NCBI RefSeq assembly: GCF_004369205.1
Contig: NZ_QFGA01000003.1
Coordinates: 434,001 to 498,000 of the forward strand
Length of the DNA stretch: 64,000 bases
Direction of reading: 5' to 3'
From: Pelotomaculum schinkii
Lineage (GTDB): Bacteria; Bacillota; Desulfotomaculia; Desulfotomaculales; Pelotomaculaceae
Part shown: positions 11,807-49,177 of the stretch, piece after piece
Layout: every line of letters begins with the position of its first letter
Position numbering within the stretch: position 1 is the stretch's first letter
Position numbers and translations under genes: made by a program
The notes under the pieces: model-generated
The model's input: only the letters and a program-made list of their open reading frames with translations
Database searches by the model: none
Told to the model about the DNA's origin: nothing

Positions 11807-12694
11807 ATGTTCTGGCAGCAGTTCTGGCAGCAGCTGGTTAACGGGGTGACCCTGGGCTCCACTTACGCCTTAATAGCCCTGGGTTATACCATGGTTTACG
11901 GTATCATTCAACTTATTAATTTTGCGCATGGCGAGGTCTACATGATCGGGGCTTTTACCGGCCTGATTATGGTAACTGTGTACAAAGTCAATTTTATGGT
12001 TGCAATCCTCGCTGCCATGCTGGTTTGCATTCCGCTGGCAATTCTTATTGAGAGAGTCGCCTACCGTCCTTTGCGCAGATCTACCAGGCTGGCCCCCCTG
12101 ATTTCCGCCCTGGGGGTCTCCATTTTTCTGCAGACACTGATTACGCTGATTAAAGGCGGCCCGAACCCGCTGGCTTTTCCCCAGGTAATTCAGGATACTG
12201 TTTACGTACTGGGGCCGGTCAGGTTTTCCACAGTCCAGGTCCTCATATTAGTCATGGCCAGCCTTTTGATGGTGTTCCTGCAATTTACCGTGAAATACAC
12301 CAGGATCGGCAAGGCCATGCGGGCCACCTCGGAAGATTATGAAACCGCCAGCTTAATGGGCATCAACGTCAATCGTGTTGTTTCATTTACCTTCGCGGTG
12401 GGCGCGGCTCTGGCCGGAGCAGGCGGTGTACTGGTGGGCATGTATTTTAATTCAATCCATCCCTTTATGGGTGTGAGTGTCGGTCTCAAATCCTTCTGCG
12501 CGGCGGTGGTCGGGGGAATCGGCAGTATTCCGGGAGCCATGCTGGGTGGAATATTCCTCGGGATTGCCGAGGTAATGGGTGTTGCCGCGGGATTTGACAC
12601 CTATAAAGAGGCGATAGCCTTTGGATTCCTGATCTTGGTTTTACTTTTTAAACCGACAGGCCTGTTGGGCCTTCCGATACAAAGGAAGGTGTAG
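11807..12694 (+). CDS. livH: Branched-chain amino acid ABC transporter permease LivH
   Basis: First permease subunit of the LIV transporter, cytoplasmic membrane. It has about eight transmembrane helices over 295 residues. Family motifs include LVNGVTLGSTYALIALGYTM, GIIQLINFAHGEVYMIGAF, IERVAYRPLRRSTRLAPLIS and the C-terminal GGIGSIPGAMLGGIFLGIAE. An AGGAGGTAG box precedes ATG 11807. The livM gene begins five bases after its stop, so the two permeases are cotranslated. Confidence 0.93.
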   Translation: MFWQQFWQQLVNGVTLGSTYALIALGYTMVYGIIQLINFAHGEVYMIGAFTGLIMVTVYKVNFMVAILAAMLVCIPLAILIERVAYRPLRRSTRLAPLISALGVSIFLQTLITLIKGGPNPLAFPQVIQDTVYVLGPVRFSTVQVLILVMASLLMVFLQFTVKYTRIGKAMRATSEDYETASLMGINVNRVVSFTFAVGAALAGAGGVLVGMYFNSIHPFMGVSVGLKSFCAAVVGGIGSIPGAMLGGIFLGIAEVMGVAAGFDTYKEAIAFGFLILVLLFKPTGLLGLPIQRKV

Positions 12695-12699
12695 GGTTT

Positions 12700-13602
12700 A
12701 TGGAAGCCTTTGTTAATGTGTTGACCAACCCTTATTACGTCCAAGTTGCAACCATGATGGGCATATTTCTGATTGCAGCCCTGGGGCTGCACCTGATTAC
12801 AGGTGTTACCGGACAGTTTTCCTTCGGGCACGCTGCCTTTTTGAGCATAGGCGCCTATAGTTCAGCTTTGATGACCATCCACCTGCACACCCCCTTTATC
12901 CTGAACATGCTTGCCGGCGGGCTGATGGCAGCCCTGTGGGGTGTCCTTCTGGGGTTTCCCAGCCTCCGGTTGACCGGAGATTACCTGGGAATCACCACCC
13001 TGGGCTTCGGTGAAATTGTACGGGTGGTATTTATTAACATGAAAATCACGGGAGGAGCCGGCGGGCTGGGCGGTATACCCAGAGAAACAAATATTTTAAT
13101 TGTTTATATTGTTGTGGCGCTGACCATCTGGGGTCTCTACCGCATCCAGAATTCCCGCTTCGGACGGGCTCTGGCCGCTATCCGTGAGGATGAAATTGCC
13201 GCCGAGTCCATGGGTATCAACCCACTTCTCTATAAAATACAAGGCTTTGCTCTCGGGACCTTCTTTGCCGGGATCAGCGGCTCCCTTTTTGCACACATGA
13301 TGCAGTATCTCAATCCAGCGGACTTTGGTTTTGCAAGGTCATTTGAGATTTTGAACTACGTGGTTTTGGGCGGACTCGGCAGTATTCCGGGGGCTATTCT
13401 TGGTACGGCTGTCCTGTCTCTGGCGCCTGAATTTTTGCGGTTCGTTCAAGAGTACAGGATGCTAATTTACGGCGCCCTGATGGTTTTGATGATGATTTTC
13501 CGCCCCCATGGCCTGCTGGGCGGGGTGGATTTTGCCCGGCTGTACAAAAAAATCAAGAATAAGCGCAAGTCTGTAGAGAGTAATAATGCTGAAGGCATAT
13601 AA
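12700..13602 (+). CDS. livM: Branched-chain amino acid ABC transporter permease LivM
   Basis: Second permease subunit. It has about eight membrane helices in 300 residues. Hallmarks are LHLITGVTGQFSFGHAAFLS, LRLTGDYLGITTLGFGEIVR, the IREDEIAAESMGINPLLYK cytoplasmic loop and the C-terminal GGLGSIPGAILGTAVLS. Start ATG 12700 follows the livH stop by five bases. Unusually for the operon, the next gene (livG) is 234 bases away, and that space is occupied by an inverted-repeat element, so expression of the ATPases may partly depend on the inserted sequence. Confidence 0.92.
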   Translation: MEAFVNVLTNPYYVQVATMMGIFLIAALGLHLITGVTGQFSFGHAAFLSIGAYSSALMTIHLHTPFILNMLAGGLMAALWGVLLGFPSLRLTGDYLGITTLGFGEIVRVVFINMKITGGAGGLGGIPRETNILIVYIVVALTIWGLYRIQNSRFGRALAAIREDEIAAESMGINPLLYKIQGFALGTFFAGISGSLFAHMMQYLNPADFGFARSFEILNYVVLGGLGSIPGAILGTAVLSLAPEFLRFVQEYRMLIYGALMVLMMIFRPHGLLGGVDFARLYKKIKNKRKSVESNNAEGI

Positions 13603-13633
13603 ACATTGCATTTTCTATAGGCATGTTGGACCA

Positions 13634-13758
13634 GGTCGTAGGCCGTAGGGCGTAAGGCGTAAAATACTAGCGCAGGATGTTAGTGCTTAAGATATATGAC
13701 GGCCTTCAAGAAGACCTAAAAGAAATGCAGTATATACTACGCCCTACGCCTTACGACC
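13634..13758. repeat. MITE-like inverted-repeat element between livM and livG
   Basis: About 125 bases bounded by 21-base terminal inverted repeats. The left arm starts GGTCGTAGGCCGTAGGGCG at 13634, and the right arm ends CGCCTTACGACC at 13758. The arms match at 19 of 21 positions. The left arm also contains a short direct repetition (GGGCGTA / AGGCGTA). There is no open reading frame inside. A related half-element lies near 49132-49177, so the sequence is dispersed in this genome. It is inserted inside an operon. Confidence 0.7.
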
Positions 13759-13836
13759 TAAACGATGTCGGTTGGATTAAATTAGATGTTTTTAAATAAA
13801 CCCTGTATAAAAGGAATTATTTACTGAGGTGCATTT

Positions 13837-14604
13837 ATGTCTTTATTACTGGAGCTGGAAGACGTAACCATCCGTTTCGGTGGTTTGATCGCTGTTGACC
13901 ACGTCAGCCTTCAGTTGGAGGAAGGTCAGGTGGTGGCTTTAATCGGACCCAACGGGGCCGGTAAGAGCACTGTTTTCAACGTGATTACCGGTATTTATCC
14001 CCCTACCGGCGGCAAGGTGCTATTTAAGGGCGCTGATATCACAACCATGAAACCATACGCCATCACAGCCCGCGGCATTGCGCGGACCTTCCAAAATATT
14101 CGTCTTTTTAAAAACCTCTCTGTTATTGATAACATTAGAATAGGTTGTCACTGCCGCAGCAAGGCGGGAATAATCGGGGCGCTAACCAGGCTGTCCGGTT
14201 TCAAGGAAGAGGAAAGAATTATTATCGAAAAATCCCTGGCCGTTATGGATGTGGTCGACCTGACCCCCAAAAGGGAAGAGCTGGCCAAGAACCTTTCCTA
14301 CGGTGAGCAGAGGCGGCTCGAAATAGCCAGGGCTTTGGCGGCTGAACCATTGCTTTTGCTGCTGGACGAACCGGCTGCCGGGATGAACCCGCTGGAGAAG
14401 CAGACTTTAATGCAGATGCTGCAGCGTATCAGGACGATGGGCGTTACTATCCTGCTGGTAGAGCACGATATGAAATTCGTCATGAGTATTTCCGACCGTG
14501 TGGACGTATTGGATTACGGGCAGAAAATTGCTTCGGGCACGCCGGCGGAAATTCAGAACGACCCTGCGGTAATTGCCGCCTACCTTGGGAAGGAAGTGGT
14601 TTAG
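13837..14604 (+). CDS. livG: Branched-chain amino acid ABC transporter ATP-binding protein LivG
   Basis: ATPase subunit of the LIV transporter. Walker A is GPNGAGKST (residues 37-45), the ABC signature is LSYGEQRRLEIARAL, Walker B is LLLLDEPAAGMNP, and the switch His lies in LLVEHDMKFV. The conserved LivG insert TARGIARTFQNIRLF is present. The C-terminal YLGKEVV is the usual end of the subfamily. Length is 255 residues. Start ATG 13837 is preceded by GAGGTG. The livF gene follows after three bases. Confidence 0.94.
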   Translation: MSLLLELEDVTIRFGGLIAVDHVSLQLEEGQVVALIGPNGAGKSTVFNVITGIYPPTGGKVLFKGADITTMKPYAITARGIARTFQNIRLFKNLSVIDNIRIGCHCRSKAGIIGALTRLSGFKEEERIIIEKSLAVMDVVDLTPKREELAKNLSYGEQRRLEIARALAAEPLLLLLDEPAAGMNPLEKQTLMQMLQRIRTMGVTILLVEHDMKFVMSISDRVDVLDYGQKIASGTPAEIQNDPAVIAAYLGKEVV

Positions 14605-14607
14605 AGG

Positions 14608-15312
14608 ATGCTCCTGGCTGTTGAAAACCTTACCGTTTCTTATGGGGGTATCCAGGCCTTAAGAGGTATTTCCTTTACCGTGGAGGAGGGTGAAGTGGTG
14701 ACCCTGATCGGCGCCAACGGGGCCGGAAAAAGCACTACTTTAAAAACCATCTGCGGCTTGGTCCGGCCCCAGTCAGGTAATGTCTCTTACCAGGATGAGT
14801 CACTGCATAAAGCGTCACCCCACCAAATCGTTTCCATGGGAATATCTCAGGTGCCGGAGGGGCGGCGTGTTTTTACCAGGCTGACCGTGCTGGAAAACCT
14901 TGAGATGGGCGCCTATACACGGAACAAACAGGAAACCAGGCAATCGCTGGAAAGTGTTTTTGAGAGGTTCCCGCGCCTTAAGGAGAGGAAAAATCAGCTT
15001 GCTGGAACCTTGAGCGGGGGAGAACAGCAGATGTTGGCTATGGGTCGGGCCTTGATGTCCAGGCCCCGCTTGCTCCTTCTTGATGAACCTTCCATGGGGC
15101 TGGCGCCGATGCTGGTGAGAGAGATATTTTCGATTATTACTGAAATCAACCGGTCGGGCATGACCATACTGTTGGTGGAACAGAATGCCAACATGGCGCT
15201 ATCTATTGCCAAGCGGGCTTATGTACTGGAAACAGGTCAAATTGTACTTTCAGGCTTGGCCGCCGAGATGGCCCGTAATCCGGAAGTGCGCAAAGCTTAT
15301 CTCGGTGAGTAA
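14608..15312 (+). CDS. livF: Branched-chain amino acid ABC transporter ATP-binding protein LivF
   Basis: Second ATPase subunit, partner of LivG. Walker A is GANGAGKST, the signature is LSGGEQQMLAMGRAL, Walker B is LLLLDEPSMGL, and the switch region is ILLVEQNANMAL. The LivF-specific ISQVPEGRRVFTRLTVLENL block is present, and 234 residues is the normal size. The ATG at 14608 overlaps no gene but lies only three bases past livG. A small unknown gene follows 23 bases later and is probably cotranscribed. Confidence 0.94.
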   Translation: MLLAVENLTVSYGGIQALRGISFTVEEGEVVTLIGANGAGKSTTLKTICGLVRPQSGNVSYQDESLHKASPHQIVSMGISQVPEGRRVFTRLTVLENLEMGAYTRNKQETRQSLESVFERFPRLKERKNQLAGTLSGGEQQMLAMGRALMSRPRLLLLDEPSMGLAPMLVREIFSIITEINRSGMTILLVEQNANMALSIAKRAYVLETGQIVLSGLAAEMARNPEVRKAYLGE

Positions 15313-30861: not shown

Positions 30862-33800
30862 ATGATTATCCCGAATTATGAGATTATAGAAAAGATCGTC
30901 GAAAGCAAAGAGGCTGTTATTTACAAAGCATATCAGAAAAAAAATGCGGAACGGCTGCTGGCGCTCAAGGTTTTGAAAACGGTCTTTTTATCCGAATATA
31001 AAATATCGCAATTCAGCCGCAGAATCGAACACCTCAGGATCTTAAACGATCCCCTTGTTATCACGCCCACAGCAATTAACGTAAATGACGGAATCTGCTT
31101 TATAACACGGGACTTTTTCGATGGGGTCCCTCTCGATAACCTGACTGCAGCGCATTCCAGGGTTTCTTTAAACAGTTTTTTCACCATAGCCTGCCAGCTG
31201 GCTGAAGCTCTGAATAAAATTCACGAAGCAGGTATTGTCCACGGAGGAGTGAAGCCGCACAATATACTTGTCAACCTCAGCACCCTCGATATCAGGTTGA
31301 TAGACTTCATAGGCACAGTTGATGTAAGAGATGTAAGCCATTTTATTTACGACCGTTCCTTTGTAAAGGACATCCTGTCTTATACCTCACCCGAACAAAC
31401 CGGCCGCATCAACCATAGAGTGGTTTTTTCTTCGGATCTCTATTCTCTCGGGATCGTATTCTACGAGATGCTGACCGGTAGTCTGCCTTTCTCTTCTGAT
31501 GATCCCCTTGAATTAATCCATTCACATCTTGCCGAAGAAGCTCCTTTCGTCCATGAATTAAATCCGGATGTCCCAATCGCCTTAAGTAACATAATCGCCA
31601 AATTGATGCTTAAAGCGCCCGAGAAACGCTACCAGAGCGCAAACGGGCTCCTTGCCGACCTGGTAAGATGCAGGGATGAATATGCCGCCACCGGTATGAT
31701 ACGCGAGTTCCCTCTGGAAAGCTGCGCTTATACCCACAGAGTTACCTTTATCTCCAAGTTGGTCGGCCGCGAGCATGAAGCTGAGATTATTCTTGAAGAA
31801 TACGAACAGGTTACCAGGGGCGCATTTCGCTCACTATTCATTTCCGGGCTGTCCGGGATCGGGAAGACACGCCTGATCCAGGAACTGCAAAAGCCGATTG
31901 TAAAACACAGAGGTTATTTCACATCGGGAAAATTTGACGTGTACCAAAGGAACATCCCTTACAGCTCTCTAATCCAGGCGCTCAGAAATTTGATGCGGAC
32001 TTTTCTGACGGAAAGCGACGAAAGGGTTGCGCTCTGGAAAAAAAGCATATTGAAAGCCGTGGGACAAAATGGAAAGATCCTGACAGATGTCATCCCGGAA
32101 CTGGAGATCCTGATTGGCCTGCAACCCGAGGTCCAACAGCTTCCCCCGGTTGAATCGCTAAACAGGTTCAATGATCTCTTCGACCGGTTTCTGAAGTGTC
32201 TGGCGAGCGAGCAGAATCCCCTGACTCTGTTCATAGATGACCTGCAGTGGTGTGACGCGGCATCCTTTGAATTCCTGACAAATATATTCGCTAATTATAA
32301 GGACCACCCCTATCTTTTCTTTTTGGGTGCGTACCGCCATAACGAGGTGGAATCAAGCCATCCCTTAACCAAGCTCATCGGGAGCGCCAAAGAGAGCAGC
32401 CAGCCATTGCAGGAAATCCGGCTGGGGCCCTTGCAGCCGCAACATTGCCATGAAATGGTCTCATACATTCTTGACGCACCGCTTGTGCAAACAGAGACGT
32501 TATCTGATTTTATAAGCATGCTAAGCGAAGGGAACCCGCTGTTCGTCAGTGAGAGCCTGTCATATCTTCACAATGAAAACCTTCTTTACCTTGACGGTGA
32601 GGGGCAATGGCGATGGGATATGGAAAAGATCCGTCAGTCCCGCATGCCGAATACCGTAGTCGCTCTTTTTGGCTCAAAGATTCAGAAGCTTCCACCTGAC
32701 CTGGTAAACCTCCTCGAATTTTGCTCCTGTATGGGAAATACTTTTTCACCTGCCGATATGGCAGCGCTCAAGGAAACAACTCTGGTAGAGATCTTTGAGT
32801 TGTTGAAACCTGCTCTTGGACAAGGACTGCTGATGGAAAACAAGGACAAGTTGCAGTTTGTCCATGACAAGGTCCAGGAAGCGACGTTGTCCGCTATTTC
32901 GACGGAAAGACGCCGCCGGATTCACTGGCAAATCGGAAATCACCTCCTCGGTACTATGCCGGAGGGCGTTCAAGACATCGAAAAACAAGAGAACTTGTTT
33001 GCAATTGTTTCCCACCTCAACATAGGCAGGGAAAGTAATCCGGATGCAAAGACGGCTTATCTTTTATCAGACCTCAACTACCATGCCGGCAACAAGGCAC
33101 TGGCTTCCCTTGCCGTGGAAGCGGCAAATGAGTATTTCAAACTCAGCAGACAACTATTGCCGGTTGACTGCTGGGGGGATGATCACTACGACCGTACCTT
33201 CAGGATATTCCAGAAAGCGGCAAAGACAGAGCTTATGTGCGGTAATTATGATAATTTTGAATTTCTACTCAACCAATTGCTTGATCATGCCAAAACCGAT
33301 TTGGATAAGGCCGAATGTCTGGCGGAACAAACGACTTCGCTGTCATCCGTCGGTAATTTTATCAAGGCTATTGAAACAGCCAACCGGGGCCTTGCCTATT
33401 TTGACAAGGCCATCCCGTTAAGTCCGGATGAAGCGGACAGGCGACGGTATGAGATAATGTCTGAGATTTCCGCAAAGGATATCGATGTCTGGGAAGCCAT
33501 TCTGAACATGCCTTTCGCCACGGACAGAAAAAGCAAAATTGAGCTTGCGTTTTACAGCGAGCTTATTCCTGACCTGTATATGTCCGGTCTGGTGCCGCAG
33601 CTTTATCTCTCGGCTGCGCAATCAACGCAGCATTGCCTGTCTGGCGGCATGGATGAATCCGTGATTTATTCTTTCAGTATCATGGGACTTCAGTTTGGAG
33701 AAGAGGAAGACTTTGCACAGGCATTCAAATACGAAGACCTGGCGCGGGACCTGTCTGCAAAATACCCGAACACATTCGGCGCTACCCGCGGGATGAACGG

Positions 33801-35919
33801 GATCGTCTGGTGCAACATGCATTCAAGGAGTCACCCCAAAGAGATCGTTGATTATTGCCTGAAGTCGATCCAGTGCGGGAAAAACTGCGGTGACCTGTAT
33901 AACGCCGGACTTTCCTACGGCCCCCTGATGTGGAACCTGCAGGTCCAGGGGGCGGATCTGTCTGCTATCGAAGCCTACGCCAAGGAATGCCTGCAGTTCT
34001 CTAACAGATATCATCTGTCTTTTTCCATAGGCCTGGCCGAAGCGGTGCTGGCCGGCTGGAGTGAACCCATGCGGAAAGGCTATTCCCTTATACCCATGGA
34101 AGAAAAACTGAGGCAATGGGAGCGGGACAACCATATCGCTGCAGCAGGCAGTTATTACGTCCACATGGCCCTATCGCAGTATTACCTGGGAGAGCATGAA
34201 GAGGCCGAGGTATACCTTGCCGGAGTCAGGAAGTATCTGTCGGGTCTTACCGATAACGTGCTGAAGAGACAGTGGCATGTCTTCCGGGTGTTGAACTCGC
34301 TTAAGCTGTATGAAAAGGGTATAGGTTTTGCAACTGAACATGAATTAATGGCAGAAATTCAGCCGCTTATCAAGAAGACCGAAACATGGGCCGGTTTAGG
34401 GCCTTTGTTGAAGCCATACCTTGCCTTTCTTTATGCCGAACTGGAAAGAGTCACCAGTGGGTTTGAAAAGGCCAGGAGCCTTTACCTCGATGCGATAGAC
34501 ATTGCACATGAACAAAAGTATACGTTTCTGGAAGGCCATCTCAATGAATGCCTCGGTGAACTTCTCCTGCAGGCGGGTCATTGTTCCAAAAGGGTATTTT
34601 TTGTCGAGGCGGCACGTTTGTATAAGAAATGCCGTGCAGAGCAAAAAGAAATCAGTCTTATCGAAAAATATCCTGAGTATTTTGAGGAAGAAAAGACCTG
34701 CTACGCACATTTAGAAGTGGAATCTTCCTCCTCCCATACCCTTCCTAACCTTGACGTCAATTATCTGATGAAATCATCCATCGCTATTTCTGCCGAGATT
34801 GAGCAGGACGCCCTGCTGAAAAAGATTATGAACGTGGTCATCGAAAGTTCGGGGGCGCAGCATGGTTATCTGCTGATTGAGGAAGATGGCGCCTTGTTTA
34901 TCCGTGCGGAAAGCCATGTCGCCGACAAAGAGGTTGTAAAGACATTTCATATAGAACTTGAAGAAGCCGGCGGCATCTGCAAAGCGATTGTCCGTTATGT
35001 GTATCGAACCGGAGAGAGGATGATCCTTGACAGCGCTTTTCAGGAAGGCATGTTCAAAGACAACCCGGAGGTCCAGCAGCTGCAGCTGCGCTCAGTCCTC
35101 TGTCTTCCGGTAATCAAGCAATCAAAGATGATCGGGATCCTCTATCTGGAAAACCGTCTTTCCAATGCGGTATTTACCTCCGGCAAGACGCAAATGACGG
35201 AACTGTTGACGTCACAGGCGGCCATTTCACTTGAGAATTCCCGGTTGGTGGGGGATATGAAAAAGGCGGAGGAAGAGGTCAAAAAATCGCTAAGAGAAAA
35301 AGAGGCGCTTTTAAAGGAAGTACACCACCGTGTTAAAAACAACCTTCAGATCATTTATAGCATGCTAAATCTTCAACTGGCTAAGATCAAAGACGAGCAG
35401 GCCATCGCATCGTTCAAAGAGAGCCAGAACCGGGTTTACTCAATGGCCCTTATCCATGAAAAACTATACCAGTCCGATTCGTTGGCAAAAATCGACCTTT
35501 CCGAATACATCCGAAGCCTCACAACCAACTTGTTCCTCTCTTACGGAGTGACCAAGAGGGCCATAAAACCGAAGATACTTGTTGAAAACGTTACGCTCGG
35601 CGTTGATACGGTCGTTCCCTGCGCTTTGATCATTAATGAGCTCGTCTCCAATTCGTTGAAACATGCCTTTCCCAAACTTTCTGGACCGGCTGGAGAGACA
35701 GGTGAAATATGTGTTGACCTGCGCCATGGCGCCGGCAATAAGTTCATATTAAGCGTCAGTGACAATGGTGTCGGTTTGCCGGAAGATTTCGAGATACTGA
35801 ACTGTGAATCACTGGGACTAAAATTAGTAAGCGCGCTGGTAAAACAGCTGAAGGGCGCCATGCATATCAATAAAAGCAACAGAACCGAATTTGTAATTAA
35901 GTTTAAAGCTTTAAAATGA
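30862..35919 (+). CDS. Giant kinase-like/AAA ATPase/GAF/histidine kinase protein
   Basis: A 1685-residue cytoplasmic signalling protein. Residues 1-270 are a Ser/Thr-kinase fold (Lys36 in LALKVLK), but the catalytic loop reads HGGVKPHN (127-134), so the HRD aspartate is Gly129, and the DFG region reads DFIG (148-151). It is probably a pseudokinase. From about 300 to 640 is an AAA/NACHT-like ATPase with Walker A GLSGIGKT (Lys335) and Walker [14 protein letters not shown] long helical, TPR-like region runs to about 1290, then a GAF domain (about 1310-1470) and a HisKA_2/HATPase kinase with HHRVKNNLQ (His1488/1489) and [11 protein letters not shown]. The receiver-PAS-STAS protein follows 16 bases downstream and is a likely phosphotransfer partner. 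The start ATG 30862 has only a weak box (GAAGTAAT). Confidence 0.82.
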
Positions 35920-49131: not shown

Positions 49132-49177
49132 GGAAATGCAGTATGTTCCTGCGTCCTACGCCTGACGGCTTACGACC
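49132..49177. repeat. Half copy of the livM-livG MITE-like element
   Basis: GGAAATGCAGTAT, then an arm with CCTACGCC and GGCTTACGACC, follow the right end of the element at 13634-13758 (GAAATGCAGTAT, CCTACGCC, TTACGACC) with small insertions. The left arm is absent here. It lies in the 276-base gap between the small membrane protein and the CotF-like gene. Confidence 0.6.

Follow-up and report, generated by a model that had tools for sequence, protein, structure and literature searches.

The window, by which we mean the whole stretch of 64,000 nucleotides that was analyzed (G000:C3:434001-498000, where G000 denotes the 4.44-Mb genome of Pelotomaculum schinkii), contains a liv operon, the genes of which were named from their Pfam matches (Table 1). 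The gaps between livH and livM and between livG and livF are 5 and 3 nt, whereas livM and livG are split by 234 nt, and this longer gap houses an inverted-repeat element with arms of 22 nt (13633-13654 and 13738-13759) that are 91% complementary and have 83 nt between them. The original prediction had placed a non-coding inverted-repeat element here and had pointed to the long gap in an otherwise tight operon, and it was right on both counts, including the coordinates. It had also described the ends as matching arms, which holds in so far as they are complementary, but it missed that they are made up of tandem heptamers, CGTRRGN. One arm adjoins a core of 22 nt. The right end recurs at the place where a repeat had been reported (49132-49177), in the form of a core (49134-49145) and four heptamers (49147-49174), for which no facing left arm was found.

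No closed open reading frame of 40 or more amino acids was found within the element, which lies outside any rRNA gene and does not encode an S23p/IVP protein, and no part of the window matched Rfam at gathering scores. A consensus scan of positions 13560-13860 recovered neither a promoter-like site on the sense strand nor a terminator-like site, and the proposal that the element carries a promoter or an attenuator was dropped; the same scan gave one weak promoter-like site on the non-coding strand. The single strand from 13620 to 13775 was predicted to fold with -51.9 kcal/mol (z -3.06), which none of 200 shuffled sequences matched. A putative processing site is the most plausible candidate among the functions that had been suggested. 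It was also noted that the window encodes a protein of 1685 aa (30862-35919) with Ser/Thr kinase, AAA, GAF, and histidine-kinase domains.

Table 1. Features of the liv operon and of the heptamer-armed element, in window coordinates
Feature	Positions	Strand	Basis
livH permease gene, liv operon	11807..12694	+	PF02653
livM permease gene, upstream of element	12700..13602	+	PF02653
Whole heptamer-armed element between livM and livG	13634..13758	.	Inverted-repeat arms; boundaries by heptamer tokenising
Left arm, four heptamers CGTAGGC CGTAGGG CGTAAGG CGTAAAA	13637..13664	+	Tokenising (C3:447637 onward)
Core GACCTAAAAGAAATGCAGTATA, adjoins right arm	13713..13734	+	C3:447713-447734, 1 mismatch to probe
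Right arm, three inverted heptamers ending in CGACC	13735..13758	-	Inverted-repeat and heptamer analysis
livG ATPase gene, downstream of element	13837..14604	+	PF00005, PF12399
livF ATPase gene, liv operon	14608..15312	+	PF00005
Second copy in the window, core and four inverted heptamers	49134..49177	+	C3:483134-483174

The arms are abundant elsewhere in the genome, in agreement with the dispersed element that the original prediction had proposed: the arm word TAGGGCGTAAGGCGTA gave 126 matches with up to 2 mismatches (62 + 64), compared to 3 (2 + 1) for the reversed control. With up to 3 mismatches the core matched the genome 37 times and its control not at all, and a blastn search with positions 13600-13790 returned 111 matches at E<=10; these arm-word, core, and blastn counts overlap, as one array may match in several registers. 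A second class of heptamers gave 170 matches versus none in the control; the two classes are CGTARGN and CGTGRGN. In the approximately 303 kb of merged sequence around the matches we identified 147 arrays of at least three units, 87 of which had exactly four, and the catalogue drawn from the same sequence lists at least 79 groups of four heptamers or more. A 17-heptamer array of the CGTGRGN class was observed within one element at C1:1154504-1154622.

Many copies take the form of a 54-nt unit, consisting of (A/G)G(T/A), four heptamers and a stretch resembling TATAYWCTGCATTCCTNNNGGGTC that starts at the last base of the array; the 3' part of this unit, read on the opposite strand, is the core GACCYNAAAGGAATGCAGTATA. 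In a full element, one end consists of the 54-nt unit and the opposite end of a plain inverted array. The elements sit between genes inside operons, among them an S10-type ribosomal operon (genes for S10, S19, L14, and L24 were identified), an ilv-leu operon (ilvB twice, ilvN, ilvC, leuA, leuC, leuB, and a citramalate synthase gene) and the liv operon. That livM and livG are separated by a dispersed heptamer-armed insertion can be concluded with high confidence.

The heptamer units often had palindromes of another dispersed family (GTGCGAATGAATTCGCAC and similar sequences) beside them, several times directly after the core. Palindromes of this type were seen at four loci of the P. schinkii genome (L008, L010, L011, and L012; for example, C1:1927686-1927703), and REP-like palindromes of the type AAGCAGGGGGACGGTTCTTTTGCTTCC at C1:1789979-1790263, C1:1957607, and in the region of C3:147340, some of them within heptamer-armed elements.

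One could regard the whole family as extragenic repeats of the REP/BIME kind, moved by a RAYT transposase or maintained as binding sites for a host protein. The intergenic location inside operons and the tandem or mosaic arrangements with a second palindromic family would suit such repeats. However, REPs are described as single palindromes of 20 to 40 bp in the part of the literature consulted (PMC3733652), whereas in our family the two facing arrays are tens to hundreds of nucleotides apart, and we consider a REP/BIME origin most improbable.

The closest named relatives in a comparison of LivM proteins, from which records very near to P. schinkii itself may be absent, were Pelotomaculum sp. 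UBA10960 (96% amino acid identity) and Desulfotomaculaceae STF1_176 (90%), here referred to as the genus mates G001 and G002. The element is present between livM and livG in G001, where it includes a stretch of N and the gap is 323 nt, and is absent from G002. The junction was measured in 12 of the 80 loci fetched (locus L113 was left without a value) and was short, approximately 13 to 41 nt, in 9 of these 12, which accords with the insertion put forward in the original prediction; the gap of 162 nt at L115 contained no visible heptamers. Since the element is present in G001 and absent from G002 and from most of the measured relatives, it was probably gained, on the simplest reading of the sequences before G000 and G001 split.

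The family as a whole is older and more widespread than this single insertion. A search for four heptamers with up to 1 mismatch, in which longer arrays are counted repeatedly, gave 129 matches in G000, 65 in G013, which belongs to another genus of the same family, and 26 in G001; among the 25 family genomes searched, five more had 1 to 4 matches each and 17 had none, and the reversed controls were empty in all 25. G013 carries the same kind of 54-nt unit with four heptamers and core, so the heptamer family extends beyond one genus. Restriction of the family to G000 and G001 was considered and rejected, because several orthologous sites in the S10-type and ilv-leu operons of G002 carry units that are shorter or decayed, and the family must therefore predate the split between G000 and G002.

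One heptamer-armed element of the P. schinkii genome does contain a gene. In the ilv-leu operon, heptamer arrays at C1:1609390-1609417 and 1609826-1609853 flank an open reading frame of 119 aa that encodes a 23S rRNA intervening-sequence protein (IVP, or S23p; PF05635, E 3.8e-34; TIGR02436, four helix bundle; PDB 2gsc, E 2e-12). The arms of this element are 37 nt long and 86% complementary, and their heptamers are of the same type as those between livM and livG. The corresponding insert in G001 is shorter and its IVP match is broken up, and G002 has neither the insert nor an IVP match. The three other IVP genes of P. schinkii are located within 23S rRNA genes, as indicated by an Rfam match that spans them (C1:2004640, C1:2349667, and C1:46104), and represent two types of insert, of the kind known as intervening sequences (IVS); two of the three share an identical IVP and the third is distinct. 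These inserts also have heptamer arrays as arms, of 35 to 36 nt and with sequences unlike those of the ilv-leu arms. Apart from the identical pair, the IVPs of this genome are 58% to 60% identical to each other.

With moderate confidence, and judging from sequence features, the element between livM and livG belongs with the IVS/IVP elements. Because an IVP gene was found in just 1 of the at least 79 catalogued heptamer groups, and those IVP elements of the genome that were inspected did not show the core, we infer the derivation from IVP elements from the arms and their context. The kinship is supported by architecture, and the mobilizing enzyme is putative. The findings suggest that heptamer-armed inserts have spread through ordinary genes too, beyond rRNA.

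The element resembles both a MITE and an IVS, and fits the definition of each in part. A classical MITE would be a deletion derivative of an IS in which the heptamer arrays serve as terminal inverted repeats for transposase binding. The inverted ends, the lack of coding capacity, the dispersed copies, and the occupied versus empty sites all agree with this, and the usual four heptamers per end, together with a conserved core at one end, resemble protein-binding arrays. However, none of 50 facing arm pairs had a target-site duplication when the 6 nt next to the assumed ends were compared; the longest direct repeat there averaged 1.5, compared to 2.0 in shuffled sequences. Three of the seven positions vary in every heptamer at the ends, no autonomous element with such arms was encountered in the fetched stretches, which make up a small fraction of the genome, and the sole gene identified between arms of this kind is that for IVP. 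We consider a classical MITE fairly unlikely; of the label "MITE-like" in the original prediction we retain the dispersed, non-coding, inverted-repeat insertion and do not find support for the IS-derived origin, given the missing target-site duplication and the degenerate heptamer-array ends.

Heptamer arms around IVP genes were then sought in a broader set of genomes with one script throughout, which scored a locus as positive if its facing arms reached a score of at least 29 and the best self-match period was 7 to 9 in both arms. Of the 64 IVP loci, which come from several phyla, 50 passed (47 of 61 if only distinct arm pairs are counted), and 41 of the 64 had a period of 7 in both arms. The positives were distributed as 12 of 17 loci in the family genomes, 17 of 18 on plasmids, and 21 of 29 in other genomes of the phylum. 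An identical procedure applied to random intervals gave 1 positive in 1,000 (none of 500 in the window and loci L110-L189; 1 of 500, a period-7 pair, in loci L323-L362). At a stricter cut-off for periodicity, 47 of the 64 IVP loci (12, 15, and 20 in the three sets) were positive versus 1 of the 1,000 random intervals. In an earlier control of 260 intervals, one weak period-8 pair passed at the looser cut-off, the one behind the count of 50, and none at the stricter.

The heptamer sequence varies between IVP elements and is common to both arms of one element. The median arm score was 38 when the two arms were taken from the same locus and 18 when they were taken from different loci, and in 43 of the 61 distinct loci the own pair scored higher than each of the 8 cross pairings made for that locus. 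Scores of 29 or more were reached by 29 of the 488 cross-locus pairings, at any period and in some cases through shared rRNA flanks. Among the 14 loci that failed the test, L280 and L283 had a period of 7 and scores of 27 and 28, just under the cut-off. The right flank of L281 was cut, and for L321 and L282 the verdict varied with the length of flank compared.

The plasmid set comprised 18 of 35 records (38 places), picked mainly for coverage and host spread, and the hosts were mostly cyanobacteria, along with Azospirillum, Gemmatirosa, and Riemerella. At least one arm had a period of 8 or 9, rather than 7, in 9 of the 18 plasmid loci. Three cyanobacterial plasmid IVP genes were observed between cas genes (cas6 and cas4 in L305 and L313, cas10 and cmr3 in L312). 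The set from other genomes of the phylum consisted of the 29 best-scoring new loci fetched, from a list of over 100 matches spread across 73 of the 398 genomes. Of 20 such loci checked, 1 was located in a 23S rRNA gene, so most of the IVP genes in this set lie outside rRNA; L391 was also apparently inside a 23S gene, as judged by a flank match.

Facing arrays of any repeat unit were also searched for. Three pairs were recovered, all with a period of 7, one being the livM-livG element in the G000 window and the others located in G013 and G015, and all three genomes carry IVP. The pair in G015 encloses only approximately 100 nt, and its units, such as AGTAGTC, are also those of a 23S IVS arm in G000. 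No pairs were found at periods 5, 6, or 8 to 11, none in 388 kb of relatives that lack IVP, and no non-coding heptamer pair in 200 kb of the IVP-bearing G012. With three pairs only, the association between such pairs and IVP is suggestive.

These observations bear on whether the arrays are merely simple heptamer repeats, produced by slippage or acting as G-quadruplex or regulatory sites, that face each other by accident. Many bacterial genomes contain more heptameric repeats than expected, according to the parts consulted of a study of Xanthomonas in which four units is the usual length of the GGGAATC arrays (PMC4692102), and in our data the length of the arrays differs between orthologous sites. 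Accidental pairing is difficult to reconcile with the agreement in heptamer class between facing arrays in 22 of 25 cases, with a conserved core that is not heptameric, or with the 70 and 75 facing pairs given in the same Xanthomonas study (PMC4692102, likewise as far as consulted). The absence of period-7 pairs from 388 kb of IVP-negative relatives also speaks against it, although the 200 kb of IVP-positive G012 was empty as well. Simple repeats with accidental pairing are in our judgment very unlikely.

We next turn to the RNA. At least half of the 5' arm was predicted to pair with the 3' arm in 37 of 45 non-coding elements, while 8 paired less than half of the arm, and the fold had z < -2 in 43 of the 45 (30 shuffles each). 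Core-bearing units located between co-directional genes, as defined by mechanical ORF calls, had the core in sense orientation in 28 of 39 cases and in antisense in 11, and hence both orientations occur. Among arms of one heptamer class no position-by-position co-variation was detected (shuffle p 0.51 and 0.86; some of the facing pairs share an arm), and on the sense strand A.C mismatches outnumbered G.U pairs by 72 to 39 (81 to 54 with the reverse arrangements). The missing co-variation and the excess of A.C over G.U argue against fine selection on an RNA stem, and arms that do not co-vary are expected of DNA recognition sites, a point in favor of the MITE. Tandem heptamers may nevertheless preserve arm complementarity despite gain, loss, or shift of units, and it is plausible that tandem arms pair adequately in any register, which would reconcile a stem with the missing co-variation.

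RNase III excises the IVS of rRNA, including the Coxiella IVS with tandem heptamers in its 5' region (PMC4990558, in the parts consulted), and cuts mRNAs at Correia inverted repeats, as summarized in the consulted part of a review on MITEs (PMC10969869). The non-coding copies may be deletion derivatives or parasites of IVP-type elements that are co-transcribed with the host operon, and RNase III may cut the stem of 22 to 37 bp formed by the arms, as in rRNA IVS. The liv transcript would then be cleaved between livM and livG, and probably with little harm, since no reading frame is cut. That the livM-livG element is a non-coding relative of the mobile IVS/IVP inserts, co-transcribed and with a stem cut by RNase III, is the account that we favor and hold to be probable, if far from certain. 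Our confidence is lower for the specific step of RNase III processing of the liv element in vivo.

Comparison with 23S rRNA IVS that encode S23p/IVP (PF05635) reveals the same layout of complementary arms, approximately 28 to 37 nt long, around a few hundred nucleotides, and the 23S IVS of P. schinkii itself have heptamer-array arms, as does the livM-livG element. The latter differs in being non-coding, in its location in an mRNA operon, and in its core, which was not seen in the IVP elements of this genome. Many IVS are likewise non-coding. In Coxiella burnetii, three tandem heptamers GACAGAT precede the S23p open reading frame of the IVS; IVS have been known for more than 25 years as inserts that fragment rRNA, and their origin and function are described as obscure (both PMC4990558, as far as consulted).

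Similar repeats have been described elsewhere, in sources that were consulted in part. The Xanthomonas GGGAATC repeats (Rehm et al. 2015, PMC4692102) are, like the family described here, mostly four heptamers long, intergenic, and arranged in facing pairs, but they have another heptamer and were studied as G-quadruplex-forming sequences. The terms "four helix", "intervening sequence", and XCC0516 are absent from the main text of that article. XCC0516 of X. campestris, which is named in PMC4990558, is an S23p-type protein of solved structure (PDB 2gsc). The TAACTGA repeats of Beggiatoaceae and cyanobacteria are also intergenic tandem heptamers in many copies but differ in being direct repeats with a possible translational role; the main text of the article (PMC4679880) contains none of the terms IVP, S23, and "intervening". 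The Correia elements of Neisseria, which we liken by their description, are small inverted-repeat elements with ends that are cut by RNase III in mRNAs (PMC10969869, in part). In the open-access papers we found no link between IVP genes, heptamer arms, and intergenic copies, and no generalization of the Coxiella IVS heptamers (PMC4990558, as consulted) to IVP elements.

IVP matched the NCBIfam model of Avd weakly and below the cut-off (E 2e-4, 21.6 of 80 bits). The RVT_1 domain was present in 8 of 9 IVP-bearing and in 5 of 16 IVP-free family genomes, which are related and of unequal size and completeness; for this reason a reverse transcriptase as the partner of IVP was not adopted, and the co-occurrence is kept as a hint only. 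In two relatives an IVP-like gene was observed beside a reverse transcriptase and without heptamer arms (L288, G013:C4:910-2059; L289, G017:C57:17317-18864), the former with an RT-14 RNA (RF02921). These IVP-like genes are probably the Avd genes of diversity-generating retroelements.

A far more general reading, which we think quite unlikely to hold as a whole, is that IVP/S23p genes define a widespread class of elements that are mobile at the RNA level and have inverted tandem-heptamer arms. The IVS would be only the copies that have landed in rRNA genes, and IVP, as a distant relative of Avd, would, together with a trans-acting reverse transcriptase, help to bind or copy the RNA of the element. 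The heptamers would result from short copying that is repeated, and the non-coding repeats, such as the livM-livG element, would be SINE-like parasites.

If heptamer arms do mark such a general class of elements, the S23p/four-helix-bundle genes that lie outside rRNA would gain a common context, and the intergenic heptamers of Xanthomonas, cyanobacteria, and Beggiatoaceae would be candidates for a shared origin. In P. schinkii itself, the RNAs of the liv, ilv-leu, and S10-type operons may then be cut between genes.
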